NCBI GenBank assembly: GCA_946186455.1
Contig: CAMHNK010000007.1
Coordinates: 1-34,516 of the forward strand
Length of the DNA: 34,516 bases
Reading direction: 5' to 3'
Source of the DNA: an uncultured Candidatus Saccharibacteria bacterium
GTDB taxonomy: Bacteria; Patescibacteriota; Saccharimonadia; Saccharimonadales; Saccharimonadaceae
A program made the translations under genes and the position numbers. Below the pieces are notes generated by a model that was not told the origin of the DNA, searched no databases, and was given only the letters and a program-made list of their open reading frames with translations. Position 1 is the stretch's first letter. Each line of letters opens with the position of its first letter. Shown in pieces: positions 19,971 to 30,667 of this stretch.

Positions 19971-20588
19971 TTATTTTGGTAAGAGTAAGAATGCGACGGT
20001 ACCAGCAGCAGCACCGAGAATAATGGTGATGATGATTGTAACAACTAAACCAATGCGGGAATCTTTTTCTGGCTTGTCGATGATGGTAACTGGTGTAGTT
20101 TCCTTCTCGACTGGAGCGACAACCTTTTTCTGGTAGACATTCTTAGAAAGCGGACGCTTGGTGACTTTCTCAGTGTTAACGAAGTTCGCTTTTGGAACTT
20201 TCAAAGTCTCGGTCTTTTTCGGCTCTGGCTTTGGCACCGGAGTAGCTTTTGCGACTGGCTTAGGAGCCGGCTTAGTAGCAGGCTTCTTCCCCATGATTGG
20301 CATTCTCGAGGCGGTGATTTTGCGGGCTTTGGCCGCTTTAATCTCAGAATCATCACCAATTGGACGCTTAGCAACTGGGGCAGTTTTTACAAATTTCTTG
20401 TTGTAGTCAACCTTTGGTGCAGGATGATTAGAAATGGTAACACCGGCACGTGGTTTGCGCACGGCAAACATATCATTGATATCAATTTCATCGATCCCTT
20501 TGGTATGAGAATCATTTGCCTGAGTCGGTGTATCGTCAGGCTGATCTACTTTATGCGTTGGCACGAAATCGATGTATTTTCTGTTCAT
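19971..20588 (-). CDS. C-terminally anchored, Pro/Lys-rich protein, unknown
   Basis: A 205-aa protein. About 175 residues are low-complexity and basic (KPATKPAPKPVAKATPVPKP), followed by one C-terminal membrane helix (IGLVVTIIITIILGAAAGTV AFLLL) and a short LPK end, i.e. a tail-anchored or single-pass topology with a long cytoplasmic disordered arm. The start ATG overlaps the tpiA stop (ATGA), so the two are translationally coupled. No enzymatic motif. Confidence 0.75.
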   Translation of the reverse strand: MNRKYIDFVPTHKVDQPDDTPTQANDSHTKGIDEIDINDMFAVRKPRAGVTISNHPAPKVDYNKKFVKTAPVAKRPIGDDSEIKAAKARKITASRMPIMGKKPATKPAPKPVAKATPVPKPEPKKTETLKVPKANFVNTEKVTKRPLSKNVYQKKVVAPVEKETTPVTIIDKPEKDSRIGLVVTIIITIILGAAAGTVAFLLLPK

Positions 20589-21355
20589 GACTTCACTCTT
20601 TTAGCTGTCTCGATTATATCAGCAAACTCACTGAGAATCAAGGAAGAGCCACCGATGAGGAGGCCGTTCACGCCTGGAACGGTGAGGTAGGCACCGGCAT
20701 TGGATGGGTTGACGCTACCACCAAAGAGGATTGGCACGGCTTCGGCAACTTTGGCACTATAGGTGTCAGTGAGAATTTTGCGAATGAGTTTAACAACTTC
20801 GGCAATCTCGTCTGGGGAGGCGAGCTTGGCGGATTTAGTACTGGAAATAGCCCAGACTGGTTCGTAGGCAATGATAACTTTATCGAGATCCTCTTCGGAG
20901 ATTTCGGAAAGACCACCAACAACTTGGTCGCGAATAACATCGGCAGTTTCGCCAAAGGCACGTTCGGATTCGGTTTCACCAACGCAAAGAATTGGGGTGA
21001 TTTTGTTACGAACGGCAGCTTCGACTTTTTTCTGAATCATTTTGTCATCTTCGCGGAAGATGTAACGGCGCTCGGAATGACCAATAATACAATAATCGGC
21101 AAGACCACGGAGCTGGTTAAATGAGACTTCACCAGTATAAGCACCATAATCGCGGTAATAGGCGTTTTGGGCGGCAAGTTTCATCTTGTGACGGTCGATT
21201 TGAAGTGACAGAGATTGTAAAGCGAGCGCACCAGGTGCGACGACAACTTCAACATCACGATAATTTGGTACCCTCTTTAAGAGTTTATGAAGATAGATGG
21301 AGGCTTCACCGACCGAGAAGTTCAACTTCCAGTTGCCCACGATATAAGTTTTCAT
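20585..21355 (-). CDS. tpiA: Triosephosphate isomerase
   Basis: A 256-aa TIM barrel interconverting dihydroxyacetone phosphate and glyceraldehyde 3-phosphate. Catalytic residues are present: Lys10 in VGNWKLN, His93 in IIGHSERR, Glu165 in AYEPVWAI. Flexible loop 6 is unusual: the normal AIGTGK is replaced by AISSTKSAKLAS, with different glycines and about two extra residues. The C-terminal phosphate-binding GGSVN and LIGGSSL are kept. Transcribed leaderless from the symmetric divergent promoter. Across the promoter lie a phosphomannomutase-like gene and the aldolase fusion. Confidence 0.96.
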   Translation of the reverse strand: MKTYIVGNWKLNFSVGEASIYLHKLLKRVPNYRDVEVVVAPGALALQSLSLQIDRHKMKLAAQNAYYRDYGAYTGEVSFNQLRGLADYCIIGHSERRYIFREDDKMIQKKVEAAVRNKITPILCVGETESERAFGETADVIRDQVVGGLSEISEEDLDKVIIAYEPVWAISSTKSAKLASPDEIAEVVKLIRKILTDTYSAKVAEAVPILFGGSVNPSNAGAYLTVPGVNGLLIGGSSLILSEFADIIETAKRVKS

Positions 21356-22150: not shown

Positions 22151-22160
22151 TAAAAGCATG
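22143..22160 (+). promoter_or_regulatory. Leaderless promoter of the PfkB-aldolase fusion
   Basis: TGA-TATAAT-AAAAGC-ATG. The TAA stop of the preceding HAD gene (22148-22150) is inside the -10 hexamer. Confidence 0.7.
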
Positions 22161-23951
22161 AATATTTTGATAGTGGGCAATGTCTTAAAGGACGTTTATC
22201 TTAATTTTGATAGCCGAACGGCTGACTTTGAAATTGACAGACATAATGTTAAGTGGTTAAACGTCGGGTTTAATGCATCTGAACACTTTTTTTACAGCCG
22301 ACATTCGAGCCTCGGTGGCGCCGCGGTAACGCTCGATGTGCTCAAGAAAATGGGGATTGAAGCGAGGATTTCGGCATCGAAACTGAAACTTGAAGAAGAT
22401 GATAAAGGGATTGAGGCGGCGTTTTACCGCTATATCTTAGTGTCCGATGAAGGAGTGTCATATCTCGCGCCGATTCAAACGACCGATTCCCTGTTTGCTT
22501 CGCCGATTAATCCGGTGGACTACATTTTTGTGGATCGCTCGGCACATTTGTCACAGAAGGTGGCTGAGAAAATTGCCTCATTTCTAGATGAACATAGAGA
22601 AACCAAATTCGTGGCTTACGTAAAGAAGAATAATAAAGATCCATATCTAAAGGAACTAACTAACCGGGCGGATTTGTTGTTTGTGGAATCGATGGATGGA
22701 ATCGAACATGAGAATGTGATTTTGATTTCTGATAGTGAGATTTCGTACAAAGATATTAAAGAGACGGTTTCGATTGAGCGCGTGGATAAACTTACGCACC
22801 TGTCTGCTTATTCGATTATGGCAGCAACGATTCTTGGTGGTTTTGTACTCGGTGAAACCGTGGAGGAGAGCTTAAGAATGGCTAAGGCAAATGTTGAGAA
22901 TTCGAATCTAGATTCAGTGCTAACGCTTGAGGAAATGAAGAATCTCGCGACGATGCCAGCTGAAAGCATTGAACTGATTGCAGCGAGCCTAGTAGCACCA
23001 AAGAAAGGAATTCTCGCGGCAGATGAATCGGGTGGCTCAATTAAGAAGAAGTTCGCGGAACTGGAGATTGAAGATACGTTTGAGAACAGGCATGATTATC
23101 GCAATATCTTTCTTACGACGCCAGACCTTGAGCAGTATGTGAATGGCGTGATTCTCTTTGACGAGACAGCGCGCGACAAGACTGACAACGGTATGCCGAA
23201 CGTAGACTATCTGATTTCGAGAAGGATTATTCCAGGAATTAAGGTTGATCAGGGGCTCGAGAAGTTTGAGAATTCGGAAGAGACTTGGACGAAGGGCTTA
23301 AATGATTTACCGGAGAGACTCCGCGAATACTATGGTATGGGGCTCCGATTTGCGAAGTGGCGCGCAGCATTTAATCTAACACTTGATGAAAATGGCGAGG
23401 TTTTGACACCAACGGAGCATGCGATTAGTGAGAACTGTAAGATTCTCGCTGAATATGCGAAGGACTGCCAATCGGCCGGGCTGGTGCCAATTGTGGAGCC
23501 AGAGGTGGTTTATGATGGGTATTATCCGATTGAGAGAAATATCGAAGTGACGAGTAGGATTCTCGATTGCCTCTTTGACGAGCTCGAAAATTTCGAAGTG
23601 AAACTCGAGGCGTGTGTCTTAAAGGTCAACATGGTGCTCGCCGGAAAGAAGTTTGAAACACAGTCGACACCGGAAGAAGTCGGCAAGGCGACGGCAGATG
23701 TGTTAAAGAATCACGTGCCAGAGAAACTGGCTGGCGTAGTATTCTTGTCGGGTGGACAAACGGTCGAACAAGCCACGGCCAACCTCGGTGAAGTGATTAA
23801 AAATGGTCCGTTCCCGTGGCCAGTGACGTTCTCGTTTGCAAGAGCTTTGCAGGACCCAGCGCTCTATGCCTGGCATGGTGATATCAATAACGCTGAAGAG
23901 GCGAAGCAGGCCTTCAAAGAGCGTCTAATCGAGAACACGAAGGTTTTGTAA
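22158..23951 (+). CDS. Fusion: PfkB-like (ribokinase-fold) domain + class I fructose-bisphosphate aldolase
   Basis: A 597-aa protein. Residues 1-260 have the PfkB/ribokinase layout (MNILIVGNVLKDVYL; SLGGAAVTLDVLKKMG), but where the catalytic DTxGAGD motif should be the sequence is VDKLTHLSAYSIMAATILGG; the catalytic Asp and Gly are missing, so this half is probably not a kinase. Residues 275-597 are a full class I aldolase: ILAADESGGSIKKKF, KWRAAF (Lys400), IVEPEV (Glu448), Schiff-base Lys489 in VLKVNMV, and LSGGQ near 530. It cleaves fructose 1,6-bisphosphate to the substrates of TpiA, encoded close by. The PfkB half may regulate or oligomerise the aldolase. No frameshift between halves. Confidence 0.88.
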   Translation: MNILIVGNVLKDVYLNFDSRTADFEIDRHNVKWLNVGFNASEHFFYSRHSSLGGAAVTLDVLKKMGIEARISASKLKLEEDDKGIEAAFYRYILVSDEGVSYLAPIQTTDSLFASPINPVDYIFVDRSAHLSQKVAEKIASFLDEHRETKFVAYVKKNNKDPYLKELTNRADLLFVESMDGIEHENVILISDSEISYKDIKETVSIERVDKLTHLSAYSIMAATILGGFVLGETVEESLRMAKANVENSNLDSVLTLEEMKNLATMPAESIELIAASLVAPKKGILAADESGGSIKKKFAELEIEDTFENRHDYRNIFLTTPDLEQYVNGVILFDETARDKTDNGMPNVDYLISRRIIPGIKVDQGLEKFENSEETWTKGLNDLPERLREYYGMGLRFAKWRAAFNLTLDENGEVLTPTEHAISENCKILAEYAKDCQSAGLVPIVEPEVVYDGYYPIERNIEVTSRILDCLFDELENFEVKLEACVLKVNMVLAGKKFETQSTPEEVGKATADVLKNHVPEKLAGVVFLSGGQTVEQATANLGEVIKNGPFPWPVTFSFARALQDPALYAWHGDINNAEEAKQAFKERLIENTKVL

Positions 23952-23971: not shown

Positions 23972-23999
23972 AACCCCCGTGACGGGGGTTAATTTTTTA
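23972..23999. terminator. Strong bidirectional Rho-independent terminator
   Basis: TAACCCCCG-TGA-CGGGGGTTA stem-loop, followed by ATTTTTT on the plus strand and TTTTTT on the minus strand. It separates the convergent aldolase fusion and rplY, whose stop codon sits at the edge. Confidence 0.93.
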
Positions 24000-24662
24000 T
24001 TCAGCTGGAGTTTCTTCTGGCTTCGAACCATTATCGGATGGAACATCAGCGGCGTCGACTGGAGCTTCGGCTTCGGCTTCACGAGCGGCAGCTTCGGCAG
24101 CTGGATCGAAGAGCGAGGCAATAACTTGGTCGCCCTCGAGCTCTTTGTTGGCGAGTTCAACACCAGCTGGGAGCTTAAGATCAGCGATAGTTAACTTGTC
24201 GTCAACTTCTTTGAGGTTCGTAGCATCAACGATAAGCTCGCTTGGAAGGTCGGCAGGCTTAGCCTTAATGTCGATTTCCTCCATAGCTTGGTTCATTTCG
24301 AAGTGGAAGATCTTAGAGGCATCAGATGCTTCGAAGTTTGCAATCACGATTGGGGTGGTTGCTTCAACGACTTCGTTGGCCTTAATTGCCTGGAACTCAA
24401 TGTTGATAATCTTACGAGAAACTGGGTCGATGTGAACATCCTTTATGATAGCAAGTTGTTTCTTGCCAGCGATGTCGAGATCAACTGGGGAGTGGTAGCC
24501 GGCTTTTTCGAGAACTTTTTCGGTCGGAACGTATTCAGACGAAGCAAGAACTGGCTCTTTGCCACCGTAAACAACGGATGGGATAAAACCCTTAGAGCGA
24601 AGAGCTTTAAGCTTTTTACCAGTAATTTCACGTTTTTCTAATGCTAATTTGTATTCAGCCAT
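23997..24662 (-). CDS. rplY: 50S ribosomal protein L25 (CTC form)
   Basis: A 221-aa protein. The N-terminal L25 domain (residues about 4-90: LALEKREITGKKLKALRSKG FIPSVVYGG) binds 5S rRNA. A C-terminal TL5/CTC beta domain follows (about 95-180), then a Glu/Ala/Asp-rich tail. The ATG is preceded by AAAAGGA. It has its own promoter overlapping the end of grpE, so it can be expressed apart from the heat-shock genes. Confidence 0.93.
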   Translation of the reverse strand: MAEYKLALEKREITGKKLKALRSKGFIPSVVYGGKEPVLASSEYVPTEKVLEKAGYHSPVDLDIAGKKQLAIIKDVHIDPVSRKIINIEFQAIKANEVVEATTPIVIANFEASDASKIFHFEMNQAMEEIDIKAKPADLPSELIVDATNLKEVDDKLTIADLKLPAGVELANKELEGDQVIASLFDPAAEAAAREAEAEAPVDAADVPSDNGSKPEETPAE

Positions 24663-26358: not shown

Positions 26359-26979
26359 GAAGAAAAAATTGCAAAGATTAAAGACTGGCTCGGATCGGGC
26401 TCGATTAATATTTTTGGTTTGCCGATGTCCGGTAAGGATACACAAGGCGTGATGCTGGCGCAAGCGCTCGGGGCGAAACTGTTGTCATCCGGAATGATTA
26501 TCCGCGCCAAAGAGGCTGAAACGAGGCAGAATTTGACGGACAATGGGAATTTGCTTCCAACGAACATGTTCTATGATTGGGTATTACCATATTTTGAGAG
26601 ACCAGATTTGTTTAGACAACCTTTAATTCTCTCTTCGATTGGCAGGTGGTATGGCGAAGAAAATGCCGTGATGTCTGCAGCGGCAGGAGCTGGGCACGAG
26701 ATTATGGCAGTGATTCTCTTAAATGTCTCGGAAAAAGACGTTGAATCAAGATTTGAATCGGCAAAAATCCTAAACGACCGGGGCGACCGGAAGGATGATG
26801 ATAATATCGAGGTGTTTAGGAACCGGATGAAGGAGTTCCGTGAAAAAACTTTGCCGGTACTCTATCATTACCGCGATTTGGACTTATTAATAGAGGTGAA
26901 TGGTAACCAGGAGCGCGACAAAGTATTTAACGAGATCGTCGAAAAACTTTACGAAAAAGCTTCGCAATCTCCTGCCTAA
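26356..26979 (+). CDS. Adenylate-kinase-like nucleotide kinase
   Basis: A 207-aa protein. The P-loop NIFGLPMSGKDTQG (residues about 18-31) resembles the GxPGSGKGTQ of adenylate kinases, followed by an AMP-site-like LLSSGMIIR. The C-terminal LNDRGDRKDDDNIEVFRNRM and TLPVLYHYRDLDLLIEVNG match the R-DD...R...P...Y pattern of the Adk family. The two P-loop changes (M and D for G) suggest an Adk paralog with another substrate rather than the main Adk. The last 53 bases overlap the convergent lamin-tail gene. Confidence 0.8.
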   Translation: MEEKIAKIKDWLGSGSINIFGLPMSGKDTQGVMLAQALGAKLLSSGMIIRAKEAETRQNLTDNGNLLPTNMFYDWVLPYFERPDLFRQPLILSSIGRWYGEENAVMSAAAGAGHEIMAVILLNVSEKDVESRFESAKILNDRGDRKDDDNIEVFRNRMKEFREKTLPVLYHYRDLDLLIEVNGNQERDKVFNEIVEKLYEKASQSPA

Positions 26980-28303
26980 ATTCATAAATCACATAGATTA
27001 AACCGAGAACCACGACACCCAGCACCGCATAGAGAGCGATGAAGGAGGTATTTTCTTCGAAGGTGGAGGTGGCGAGGCTGTAGTCGGCGCCGTTATTGAC
27101 TTTGATTTTCTTGCATTTACCGGTTTCGGGGTTTAATTCGTAGCCTTCTTTGCAGGTGGTGACCTTTTCTTCTTCGACTTTTTTGCAACGGTTAGTGAGG
27201 GGATTTAGATACTGGCCGGTGGGGCAGGTTTTTTCTTCGATAATAGTGGCTTTGACGCAGTTGCCGGTTTCTTCGTTGATGATTTTTCCCTCTCCGCAAG
27301 TGCGGTACTCCTGATAGATATTGGGCTCTGACGGGGTGGGGAGAAAGGTGGTCTCATAGAGGCGAGCGCCGTTTTCTTGGTAGCCAATCCAGGCGTAGGA
27401 AGTGGCGCGTTTTTGGCCGTGGGGGAGCTCAAGTCGATCGAGCGATTCACCGGTAGTATCAATGAGCGAAATAGCAACGAAATTGGTAGGGTTTTTGGTG
27501 ATAGTAAAGTCGGTTCGATATTCGGCTTTGTAGGCGTCTGGTTTCATGATGCCGGATAAGGGGTAGAGTTTGTTTTTGTACTCGAGCGAACAACCGTCTA
27601 AAAGGATTTGTTCGGAGGATGAATTATAGAGTTCAATGAACTGTTCTTCCCTCGATTCGTCGTAGTAGCTGAGTACTTCTGAGATAAGAAGGCCTTTACA
27701 CTGGCTCAAAATCTCGGGTTTTTCCTCCTCCTCGACAAAATAACTATTCTCGTCGTAGACGGGCTCGTAGGAATCGACCTGAATGAAGGTCGCAAGAGAA
27801 TCACGGAGCAAAATCTTGGGATTTGCGGATTTAAAGGCCGGGTAGCAATCGTTTTTACCGGTCCAACAGATCGAATCGAGAATAGTGCCATCCCGTTTAA
27901 GATCAAGAGCAGCGGAAAAGGCGAGGCCACGAAAAGTACGCGTGGATTTATAGTTCACGGCTGCCAGCTCGCTCCCGGGCGAGCTGGCTAAGCGAAGGAG
28001 GATGCTCTCGCCGACCAACCAACTGTTCTCGGGGAATTCCATCAGCACAAAGGATTCCCCGCTAGAATTAGTATAGCCTATGGACAGGCCAGCGAGCGAA
28101 AGAGGGTCACCGGGTGTGGACCGAGCAAGCTCGATCATTTCGCCGGTGTTAGCGACGCCATCAATAGTGTAGCCAGGATTGATGGCACGAATGTAGATTT
28201 CGGGATATTCGGTGGCAGTATCGGCAAAGACGGATGGGGAGATAAATATGGAAATGATTAATAACCCGAAAACACATTTTAAAATGAATAAAACATTTTT
28301 CAT
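26927..28303 (-). CDS. Membrane-anchored surface protein with two lamin-tail-like domains and Cys repeats
   Basis: A 458-aa protein from the ATG at 28303 (MKNVLFILKC); the track's GTG lies two codons earlier. The signal peptide ends near SPSVFA-DTA. Two lamin-tail-like beta domains follow (about 33-150, YPEIYIRAINPG...GEMIELAR; and about 208-340, GLLISEVLSYYDESREEQFI ELYNSS). Next come three Cys-Cys repeats of the form C-x-G-x-x-(I/L)-N-x-x-T-(G/N)-x-C-x-K, then one membrane helix (FIALYAVLGVVVLGLIYVIY) and a basic tail, so the bulk is outside the cell. An adhesion or host-contact role is plausible but inferred. Confidence 0.8.
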   Translation of the reverse strand: MKNVLFILKCVFGLLIISIFISPSVFADTATEYPEIYIRAINPGYTIDGVANTGEMIELARSTPGDPLSLAGLSIGYTNSSGESFVLMEFPENSWLVGESILLRLASSPGSELAAVNYKSTRTFRGLAFSAALDLKRDGTILDSICWTGKNDCYPAFKSANPKILLRDSLATFIQVDSYEPVYDENSYFVEEEEKPEILSQCKGLLISEVLSYYDESREEQFIELYNSSSEQILLDGCSLEYKNKLYPLSGIMKPDAYKAEYRTDFTITKNPTNFVAISLIDTTGESLDRLELPHGQKRATSYAWIGYQENGARLYETTFLPTPSEPNIYQEYRTCGEGKIINEETGNCVKATIIEEKTCPTGQYLNPLTNRCKKVEEEKVTTCKEGYELNPETGKCKKIKVNNGADYSLATSTFEENTSFIALYAVLGVVVLGLIYVIYEFRQEIAKLFRKVFRRSR

Positions 28304-28348
28304 GCCCACGACGCTAACAAAACATCTCTAGAATTGCAACCCCCCACA

Positions 28349-29308: not shown

Positions 29309-30667
29309 ATGGGAAAGAAATACAATTTTGACTACGTCGTAATCGGTAGTGGTCCTGCCGGTACCACGGCGGCATTAACTTTAGCCAGAAAAGCCAAAAA
29401 CAAGGTCGCGATTGTTGAGGACCATGCTTTTGGTGGCAATAATTTGAATTCCCGTGATGTTCCCTATCTGGTAAGCCTCGGCTTTTCCCACACATTCTCA
29501 AAACTCACGAATTATCCAGAGATTAATGCACAAGAGATGCATTTTAATTTCCCTTCTGTAGTAATGCACCAAAACCAGACGATTCAAGCACTCGGGGGTG
29601 GCTCGACAGACGTATTTGATACGGCTGGGATTATTTCGATGTTTGGGCATGCGCATTTTATTGATGCACATACGCTCGCGGTGGGCCACGAACAGATTAC
29701 TTCGGAACACTTTATTATCGCAACTGGCGCGAAGTTAAATACGGGTGATATCGTGGGGCTTGATAATGTGCCTTGTCTCACACCGGAGACGGCGATTAAG
29801 CTGAGAAAACTGCCAAAATACGCTCTTGTAGTCGGCGGTGGCTCGACCGGATGCGAAATTGCTTCGTATTTTGCCGAACTCGGTACGTCGGTCTTTATGG
29901 CAGAGGCGAGTGAAAGAATTCTACCAAAGGAAGATCCAGAAGCGAGTAATGCGGTGATGGATTATTCCACGACGAAGCTTGGAATTAAGATTGCAACCGA
30001 GACGAAAGTAGTCGCGGTAGAGCGCGATGCGGTGAGTAAAAAAGTGATTATCTCTTCGAACGGACGCGAGAAATCAGTTAGAATTGATTGTATTATCCTC
30101 GCAACGGGTTCGAAGCCGGTGCTCGATATCGGGCTTGAGAATGCCGAAGTGAAATATAGCGAAAATGGTATTCAGGTGAATAAGATGTTCCAGACATCCA
30201 CCAAGAATATCTATGCGATTGGCGACGCGCTCGGGGGTGATTCATCGACCGAAAGAGCGGTATATCAGGGCAAAACTTTGGCACTTAATCTCCTTGATAA
30301 GGCGAGGGTTTATCCGGATTACAGAGGATTCGTTAGAGTAACCTCGACGAACCCAGAGGTCGCGGCGATTGGTAAAACTGAGGCGGAACTCAAAAAAGAA
30401 GGTATTAAATTCCGTAAAGCAGTAGTCTATATCAAGGATCTACCAATCAGTAAGATTGATCGTTTTAGTGATGGTTTAGTAAAGATGATTATCGGTGGGA
30501 ACCGGAGGATTCTCGGCGCGACAATTGTAGCACCGAATGCTTCCCTGATGGCCTCGGAGATATCGCTCGCAGTGCGTCATAATATGACAATTGATCAACT
30601 GAGAGAGACGCCACACATTGCAAATAGTTTTGCAGCCGTAATTGGCGAAATTAGTGATAGTCTTTAA
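29309..30667 (+). CDS. Flavoprotein disulfide-reductase-family oxidoreductase lacking redox cysteines
   Basis: A 452-aa protein with the FAD motif VIGSGPAGTTAALTLA (residues 11-26), the NAD(P) motif ALVVGGGSTGCEIASYFAELG, the second FAD-contact motif IYAIGDALGG and a dimerisation domain. It aligns with dihydrolipoamide dehydrogenase/mercuric reductase, but the CxxxxC disulfide (GGTCLNxGC) is replaced by GGNNLNSRD: Asn45 and Asp50. The C-terminal HPT-like motif is RETPHIANSF. Thiol-disulfide chemistry is therefore unlikely; a quinone, flavin or transhydrogenase-like role is possible. Preceded by GAGG. Third gene of an operon with a membrane protein, ended by a strong terminator. Confidence 0.85.
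   Translation: MGKKYNFDYVVIGSGPAGTTAALTLARKAKNKVAIVEDHAFGGNNLNSRDVPYLVSLGFSHTFSKLTNYPEINAQEMHFNFPSVVMHQNQTIQALGGGSTDVFDTAGIISMFGHAHFIDAHTLAVGHEQITSEHFIIATGAKLNTGDIVGLDNVPCLTPETAIKLRKLPKYALVVGGGSTGCEIASYFAELGTSVFMAEASERILPKEDPEASNAVMDYSTTKLGIKIATETKVVAVERDAVSKKVIISSNGREKSVRIDCIILATGSKPVLDIGLENAEVKYSENGIQVNKMFQTSTKNIYAIGDALGGDSSTERAVYQGKTLALNLLDKARVYPDYRGFVRVTSTNPEVAAIGKTEAELKKEGIKFRKAVVYIKDLPISKIDRFSDGLVKMIIGGNRRILGATIVAPNASLMASEISLAVRHNMTIDQLRETPHIANSFAAVIGEISDSL

Follow-up and report, generated by a model that had tools for sequence, protein, structure and literature searches.

The window (the whole stretch analysed here, 34,516 nucleotides) comes from an uncultured Candidatus Saccharibacteria bacterium, whose own genome was 706,831 bases long and 83% complete. 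An open reading frame with an ATG start (positions 22158 to 23951, forward strand; 597 amino acids) joins an N-terminal degenerate domain of the PfkB/ribokinase fold (the N-domain; residues 1 to 270, about 1 to 265; 22158 to 22967, forward) to a class I fructose-bisphosphate (FBP) aldolase domain (residues 271 to 597 and the stop codon; 22968 to 23951, forward). The former was recognized by profile alignment with intact PfkBs and by structure matches from a low-confidence model, the latter by PF00274 and NF033379. A HAD-IIB/eukaryotic-phosphomannomutase (PMM)-like gene (likely start 21386, end 22150, forward; PF03332, E 4.5e-12; TIGR01484, 86.1 bits) stops 7 bases upstream of the fusion, with which it is probably co-transcribed, and adjoins the N-domain in many relatives. 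The divergent neighbour is TpiA (20585 to 21355, reverse; PF00121, E 2.3e-76), which adjoins stand-alone N-domains too; an earlier note on this DNA had named both genes correctly. The convergent neighbour (23997 to 24662, reverse), which we take to encode a ribosomal protein L25/Ctc-like product, served as synteny anchor, its homologue lying beside N-domains with and without an aldolase.

PF00274 matched residues 274 to 593 (E 3.3e-100; 335.7 bits against a Pfam cut-off of 22.2) and NF033379 residues 271 to 593 (372.8 bits against an NCBIfam cut-off of 250), which places residues 271 to 593 among the class I FBP aldolases. Eight positions that we take to be the aldolase catalytic residues (D289, K362, K400, E447, E449, K489, S531, and R562) were each kept in 72/72 degenerate fusions; Lys489 (23622 to 23624, forward) is presumably the Schiff-base lysine, as assigned via rabbit aldolase numbering. 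The C-terminal half is thus like an ordinary class I FBP aldolase in all catalytic residues; the protein differs in its putative pseudokinase extension at the N terminus, and its aldolase is lost or truncated in some relatives. Because most genomes of the genus, and several further genera of the same family, have the fusion at full length, it is not a product of chance. The nearest named relatives were two Saccharibacteria MAGs (99% and 79% identity), and nearly all compared sequences come from MAGs.

As a single sequence, residues 1 to 270 matched no Pfam or NCBIfam family above cut-off, and PF00294 reached its Pfam cut-off neither in the window’s N-domain nor in any of 31 N-domains of relatives. 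An hhalign comparison of a 31-domain profile with 10 intact Saccharibacterial PfkBs covered 254 columns at a probability of 98.9 (E 1.7e-17); a control comparison of this profile with five aldolases gave a probability of 0.2 and an E value of 0.29. AlphaFold2 models built from three sequences had a mean pLDDT of 46 for the N-domain and 42 for the full protein. With the N-domain model at that confidence, ribokinase-fold kinases made up nearly all of the top Foldseek matches (best E 4.8e-4) and 50/50 of the VIA-align matches listed (Z up to 9.2). PDB sequences searched with a profile from the 31-row alignment yielded nothing relevant. Profile similarity and fold both indicate descent from PfkB, which agrees with the earlier description of a PfkB-fold domain fused to a class I aldolase and contradicts an unrelated fold. 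The structure prediction that the earlier note had proposed bore fruit for the fold and not for the comparison of the pocket with PfkB: the matches support a ribokinase fold but do not prove a pocket, which is not visible because the model is poor.

The kinase motifs were compared in a joint alignment of 114 rows (87 degenerate domains and 27 intact kinases), in which single loop positions may be slightly misaligned (by a few residues) since the two sets share only about 20% identity. The catalytic Asp of GxGD was found in 26/26 intact kinases with a letter at that column and in 0/86 degenerate rows, 78 of which carry Ser (Ser219 in the window). At the place of the DTxGAGD loop stands T213-x-L215-x3-S219 (22794 to 22814, forward; T in 82, L in 77, and S in 78 of 87), and the Asn of GGxxxN (26/27 intact kinases, one gap) is replaced by Val57 (22326 to 22328, forward; V, I, or L in 87/87). 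The earlier note had reported both absences and had located THLSA at the right site. The GxG (anion-hole) glycines are also lost, and the NxxE positions are E/D and variable. No GxGD-like string (GAGD, GCGD, GSGD, GVGD, or GTGD) occurs in the 87 domains, and the motif of PPi-dependent kinases, RXGRGD, is missing, with no Asp at the site. By GxGD Asp, by GGxxxN Asn and NxxE, and by Pfam score, the N-domain therefore falls outside the active PfkB/ribokinase family (PF00294).

Other positions are fixed. Asp12 (22191 to 22193, forward), the equivalent of the substrate-binding Asp of PfkB, was kept in 87/87 degenerate domains, and Arg91 (22428 to 22430, forward) is new, being Arg in 87/87 degenerate domains and in 0/27 intact kinases. 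Lys11 (81 of 87), Arg48 (78), Asp126 (83), Arg127 (76), and Glu247 (80) are also largely fixed; at about 20% identity, the location of most of these residues relative to the pocket is uncertain. Residues 1 to 130 were more conserved than residues 131 to 262 (mean entropy, 1.86 versus 2.30 bits). With Asp12 and Arg91 invariant and a new T-x-L-x3-S motif, the change looks like replacement rather than decay.

Elsewhere in the phylum, intact PfkB genes adjoin a class I or DhnA-like aldolase gene (L013, L017, L020, L021, and L049), and genera g196 and g199 carry intact PfkB-aldolase fusions (L036 and L038, with PF00294 E 6.4e-29 and 1.2e-34, and also L039 and L041). The open frames of the latter (L036:388-2514, L038:478-2487, L039:871-2907, and L041; about 670 to 710 codons) encode a PfkB with GAGD and a class I FBP aldolase, and are candidate bifunctional kinase-aldolases. 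In two genomes (G218 and G221), a class II FBP aldolase gene also has a second PfkB nearby. On an aldolase tree of 96 rows, all fused rows, intact and degenerate, grouped together with G239, whose aldolase now stands alone (support 100/98). In a 51-row kinase-domain tree with long branches, 22 degenerate rows and 29 intact kinases were split by one branch (support 100/100). Loss of the kinase motifs required two changes on the aldolase tree. The phylogeny called for in the earlier note thus fits a single fusion; the simplest history would add to it a single loss of the kinase site, and a second loss would be compatible with the aldolase tree. A search of 379 phylum genomes gave nine strong N-domain matches (E < 1e-80), all in family f1; outside this family, it gave weak matches to ordinary PfkBs only.

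Many genomes of the family also encode a PfkB (about 500 codons; L182 and L183, for example) that is extended at its N terminus by about 180 amino acids lacking a Pfam match; it stands in tandem with a second PfkB, followed by a gene that we take to be LOG-like. One genome (G278, C7:99729-100697) has a second class I aldolase copy broken by six stop codons, its intact fused copy lying elsewhere.

Most genomes of the family that have the N-domain carry the fused form. Among the 173 genomes of genus g1 seen in both the N-domain and the aldolase searches, 162 have the N-domain and 11 lack both halves, so that it is dispensable in some. The N-domain occurs without a PF00274 match in 14 of the 173 and with a partial aldolase only in 6 more; an aldolase without the N-domain occurs in 0/173. 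For 13 g1 genomes, absence was judged from the locus itself; for the rest, among them G521, G524, and G574 (N-domain, no aldolase match), it was judged by search alone. Fifteen loci were inspected (L097 to L104, L105, L106, and L107 to L111). Eight g1 loci (L097 to L104) hold a clean stand-alone gene at the same site (open frames of 271 to 280 codons); all adjoin the L25-like gene, five adjoin TpiA as well, and the 1,500 bases downstream lack an aldolase motif in every case. At five further g1 loci (L107 to L111), the N-domain is followed by an aldolase remnant whose catalytic set is broken in 5/5. L106 and G454 are cut by a contig end.

The remaining locus (L105; G350, genus g177) holds a stand-alone N-domain and then, in the same direction, a class II FBP aldolase gene, as though this gene had taken over the position of the class I domain. 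The open frames recorded for G350 at L142 span 594 to 1481 (N-domain) and 1456 to 2436 (class II FBP aldolase). On an 87-row N-domain tree, the state fused versus not fused takes nine changes, a count that takes in five truncated loci and L043/L044 (for which either polarity is possible); well-supported branches force at least seven. The N-domain set excludes G137/L137, which duplicates G426.

The stand-alone domain was under strong purifying selection. Fused N-domains gave dN/dS values of 0.009 to 0.122, and in the fused pairs tested the aldolase was mostly more conserved than the N-domain. Stand-alone g1 pairs gave 0.072, 0.096, 0.081, and 0.033, and the stand-alone pair L043/L044 gave 0.074; a further stand-alone pair, L101/L102, had no usable dS. 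Over all pairs, the better ones by dS were L103/L104 (0.86), L098/L099 (1.19), and L107/L108 (1.14), and several higher dS values were near or beyond saturation. Because the N-domain is kept under strong selection after loss of the aldolase, the stand-alone form probably has a function of its own. Simple decay to a pseudogene was ruled out by dN/dS, the fixed new residues, and long retention. The broken aldolase remnant of L107/L108 (G436/G380) had a dN/dS of 0.121 and, being itself under purifying selection, may have its own use.

Replacement enzymes were sought in 38 genomes (30 of genus g1), which were tested for class II FBP aldolase, DeoC-type aldolase, intact PfkB, and PGI. Class II FBP aldolase (PF01116) was found in 0/30 g1 genomes, aldolase-free ones included, and in 3/38 overall, all outside g1. 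A DeoC/DhnA-type FBP aldolase was found in 0/38 genomes (30/30 of g1 without it), whereas 13/14 control genomes gave a match in this search. A separate intact PfkB was present in 25/30 g1 genomes tested, and PGI was patchy among the 38. This bears on how upper glycolysis may run in these symbionts: several relatives retain the N-domain without any of the three FBP aldolase families searched.

On the observed fusion, motif loss, conservation, retention without aldolase, and purifying selection, we base a reading in which we place about even confidence: the N-domain would be a neofunctionalised, non-catalytic PfkB (a pseudokinase) serving as a sugar-phosphate-binding regulator or scaffold. In a single event, an active PfkB-type sugar kinase would have become joined to a class I FBP aldolase; on one branch, the donor site would have been dismantled (Asp to Ser, with the anion hole, NxxE, and two stretches lost), the substrate-side Asp12 retained, and new basic residues (Lys11, Arg48, Arg91, and Arg127) and the T-x-L-x3-S loop fixed. 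The former acceptor pocket would take up a sugar phosphate or triose phosphate, and through protein contact the domain would influence enzymes of the FBP-aldolase/TPI segment. The aldolase fused to it would be the commonest partner and not the sole one, TPI or another glycolytic enzyme being possible, and for that reason the domain could persist without the aldolase. The class II arrangement in G350 argues for a functional, not an accidental, connection with the aldolase step, and the aldolase-free genomes that keep the N-domain argue for another partner.

The suggestion of the earlier note that the domain is a regulatory sensor for the aldolase holds by half at best, as the N-domain is kept without aldolase and such a role can be at most part of the story. 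In its strict form, an allosteric sensor dedicated to the fused aldolase with stand-alone copies as late relics, it would account for the prevalence of the fusion in the family and for the operon-like link to the class II gene in G350. We consider this form unlikely: the stand-alone copies are full length with clean ends, evolve at dN/dS 0.03 to 0.10, and in some lineages are shared by several species; the N-domain occurs without an intact aldolase in 20/173 g1 genomes and the reverse in none; and in the g1 genomes tested no class II or DeoC-type aldolase stands in for the missing one.

A structural part, in which the domain would bind no ligand and would hold glycolytic enzymes by oligomerisation or as a scaffold (for instance as a lid-mediated dimer), seems to us just as doubtful as the dedicated sensor. 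The greater conservation of residues 1 to 130, which include the lid strands, is in its favour, as are the plastid proteins FLN1 and FLN2, non-catalytic PfkB proteins that are subunits of a large complex according to the portion of PMC3409070 available; the invariant Asp12 and Arg91 and the near-invariant Lys11 and Arg48, however, would resemble a binding site rather than an interface. That the N-domain has stayed a kinase by rebuilding its active site or by using a different phosphate donor (the divergent kinase of the earlier note) is very improbable and was rejected on motif counts, for although the T-x-L-x3-S loop and Arg91 are conserved like an active site and the acceptor-side Asp12 is invariant, the catalytic Asp is missing in 86/86, the Asn, NxxE, and anion-hole glycines are gone, most g1 genomes tested have a separate intact PfkB, and the GXGD Asp is described as catalytic throughout the ribokinase family, PPi-dependent members with RXGRGD included, in the accessible part of PMC5931981.

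The pseudokinase reading bears on the phosphofructokinase gap of this group. The available text of PMC8386444 describes glycolysis without phosphofructokinase in oral clades, and that of PMC7304191 describes the enzyme as rare across the radiation. The lack reported for related lineages, which the earlier note cited, was confirmed here for PF00365, which is absent from the own genome and from 97/101 genomes of the family (present in 4/101). In Nanosynbacter lyticus TM7x, a PfkB gene beside an FBP aldolase gene (TM7x_02415/TM7x_02420) is presented as the putative missing phosphofructokinase in the part of PMC12815258 available to us; that operon likewise pairs a PfkB-type kinase with an FBP aldolase, but as separate genes and with a kinase described there as a functional replacement. 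The idea of a fusion covering the missing step is favoured by the history (intact fusions and adjacent PfkB and aldolase genes), whereas the window’s own domain is unfit for it by the known mechanism; as a caution, the N-domain should not be used to fill the missing phosphofructokinase of Saccharibacteria. The only intact PfkB of the own genome lies elsewhere (L024; G000 C10), among genes that, judged by eye, resemble those for ribulose-phosphate epimerase, ribose-5-phosphate isomerase B, enolase, and a LOG family protein. With such neighbours, it could be a ribokinase and not a phosphofructokinase.

To our knowledge, very few PfkB/ribokinase family proteins without catalysis have been described, FLN1/FLN2 of plastids being the example. 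FLN1 and FLN2 are described, in the portion of PMC3409070 at hand, as PfkB-type subunits of the plastid RNA polymerase complex for which no sugar substrate was found. They share the PfkB fold with the N-domain, and chains of the plastid RNA polymerase were among the Foldseek matches; they differ in being plant proteins with a role in transcription and no aldolase fusion, and are likened here without close sequence relation. The IolC-type kinase/aldolase (NF047869) and the KHG/KDPG aldolase-sugar kinase (NF041633) also combine a PfkB kinase and an aldolase in a single chain, but with other aldolase families and intact kinase active-site motifs. Both models gave weak, sub-threshold matches to the intact Saccharibacterial fusions and none to the window protein, which matched only two aldolase models in NCBIfam. 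Searches of the open-licence PMC literature brought up no report of a pseudo-PfkB or of such an aldolase fusion in Saccharibacteria or Patescibacteria.

Adjacent kinase and aldolase genes, intact fusion, putative pseudokinase fusion, and stand-alone putative pseudokinase form a bacterial series, along which the origin of a pseudoenzyme and its later release can be traced and put to the test. More tentatively, and as something possible rather than probable, the N-domain may represent a new free-living pseudokinase family: born by fusion, stripped of catalysis, turned into a sugar-phosphate receptor, and released repeatedly as an autonomous regulator on deletion of the aldolase, in bacteria without FBP aldolase. 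If true, this would be a metabolite sensor invisible to all current annotation, since no family model detects the N-domain.

Two further genes of the window were recorded. A lamin-tail (LTD) domain protein (26927 to 28309, reverse) of this symbiotic bacterium scored 33.6 bits, just under the Pfam cut-off of 34.3, and a MerA/dihydrolipoamide-dehydrogenase-like flavoprotein (29309 to 30667, forward) scored under every equivalog cut-off displayed.
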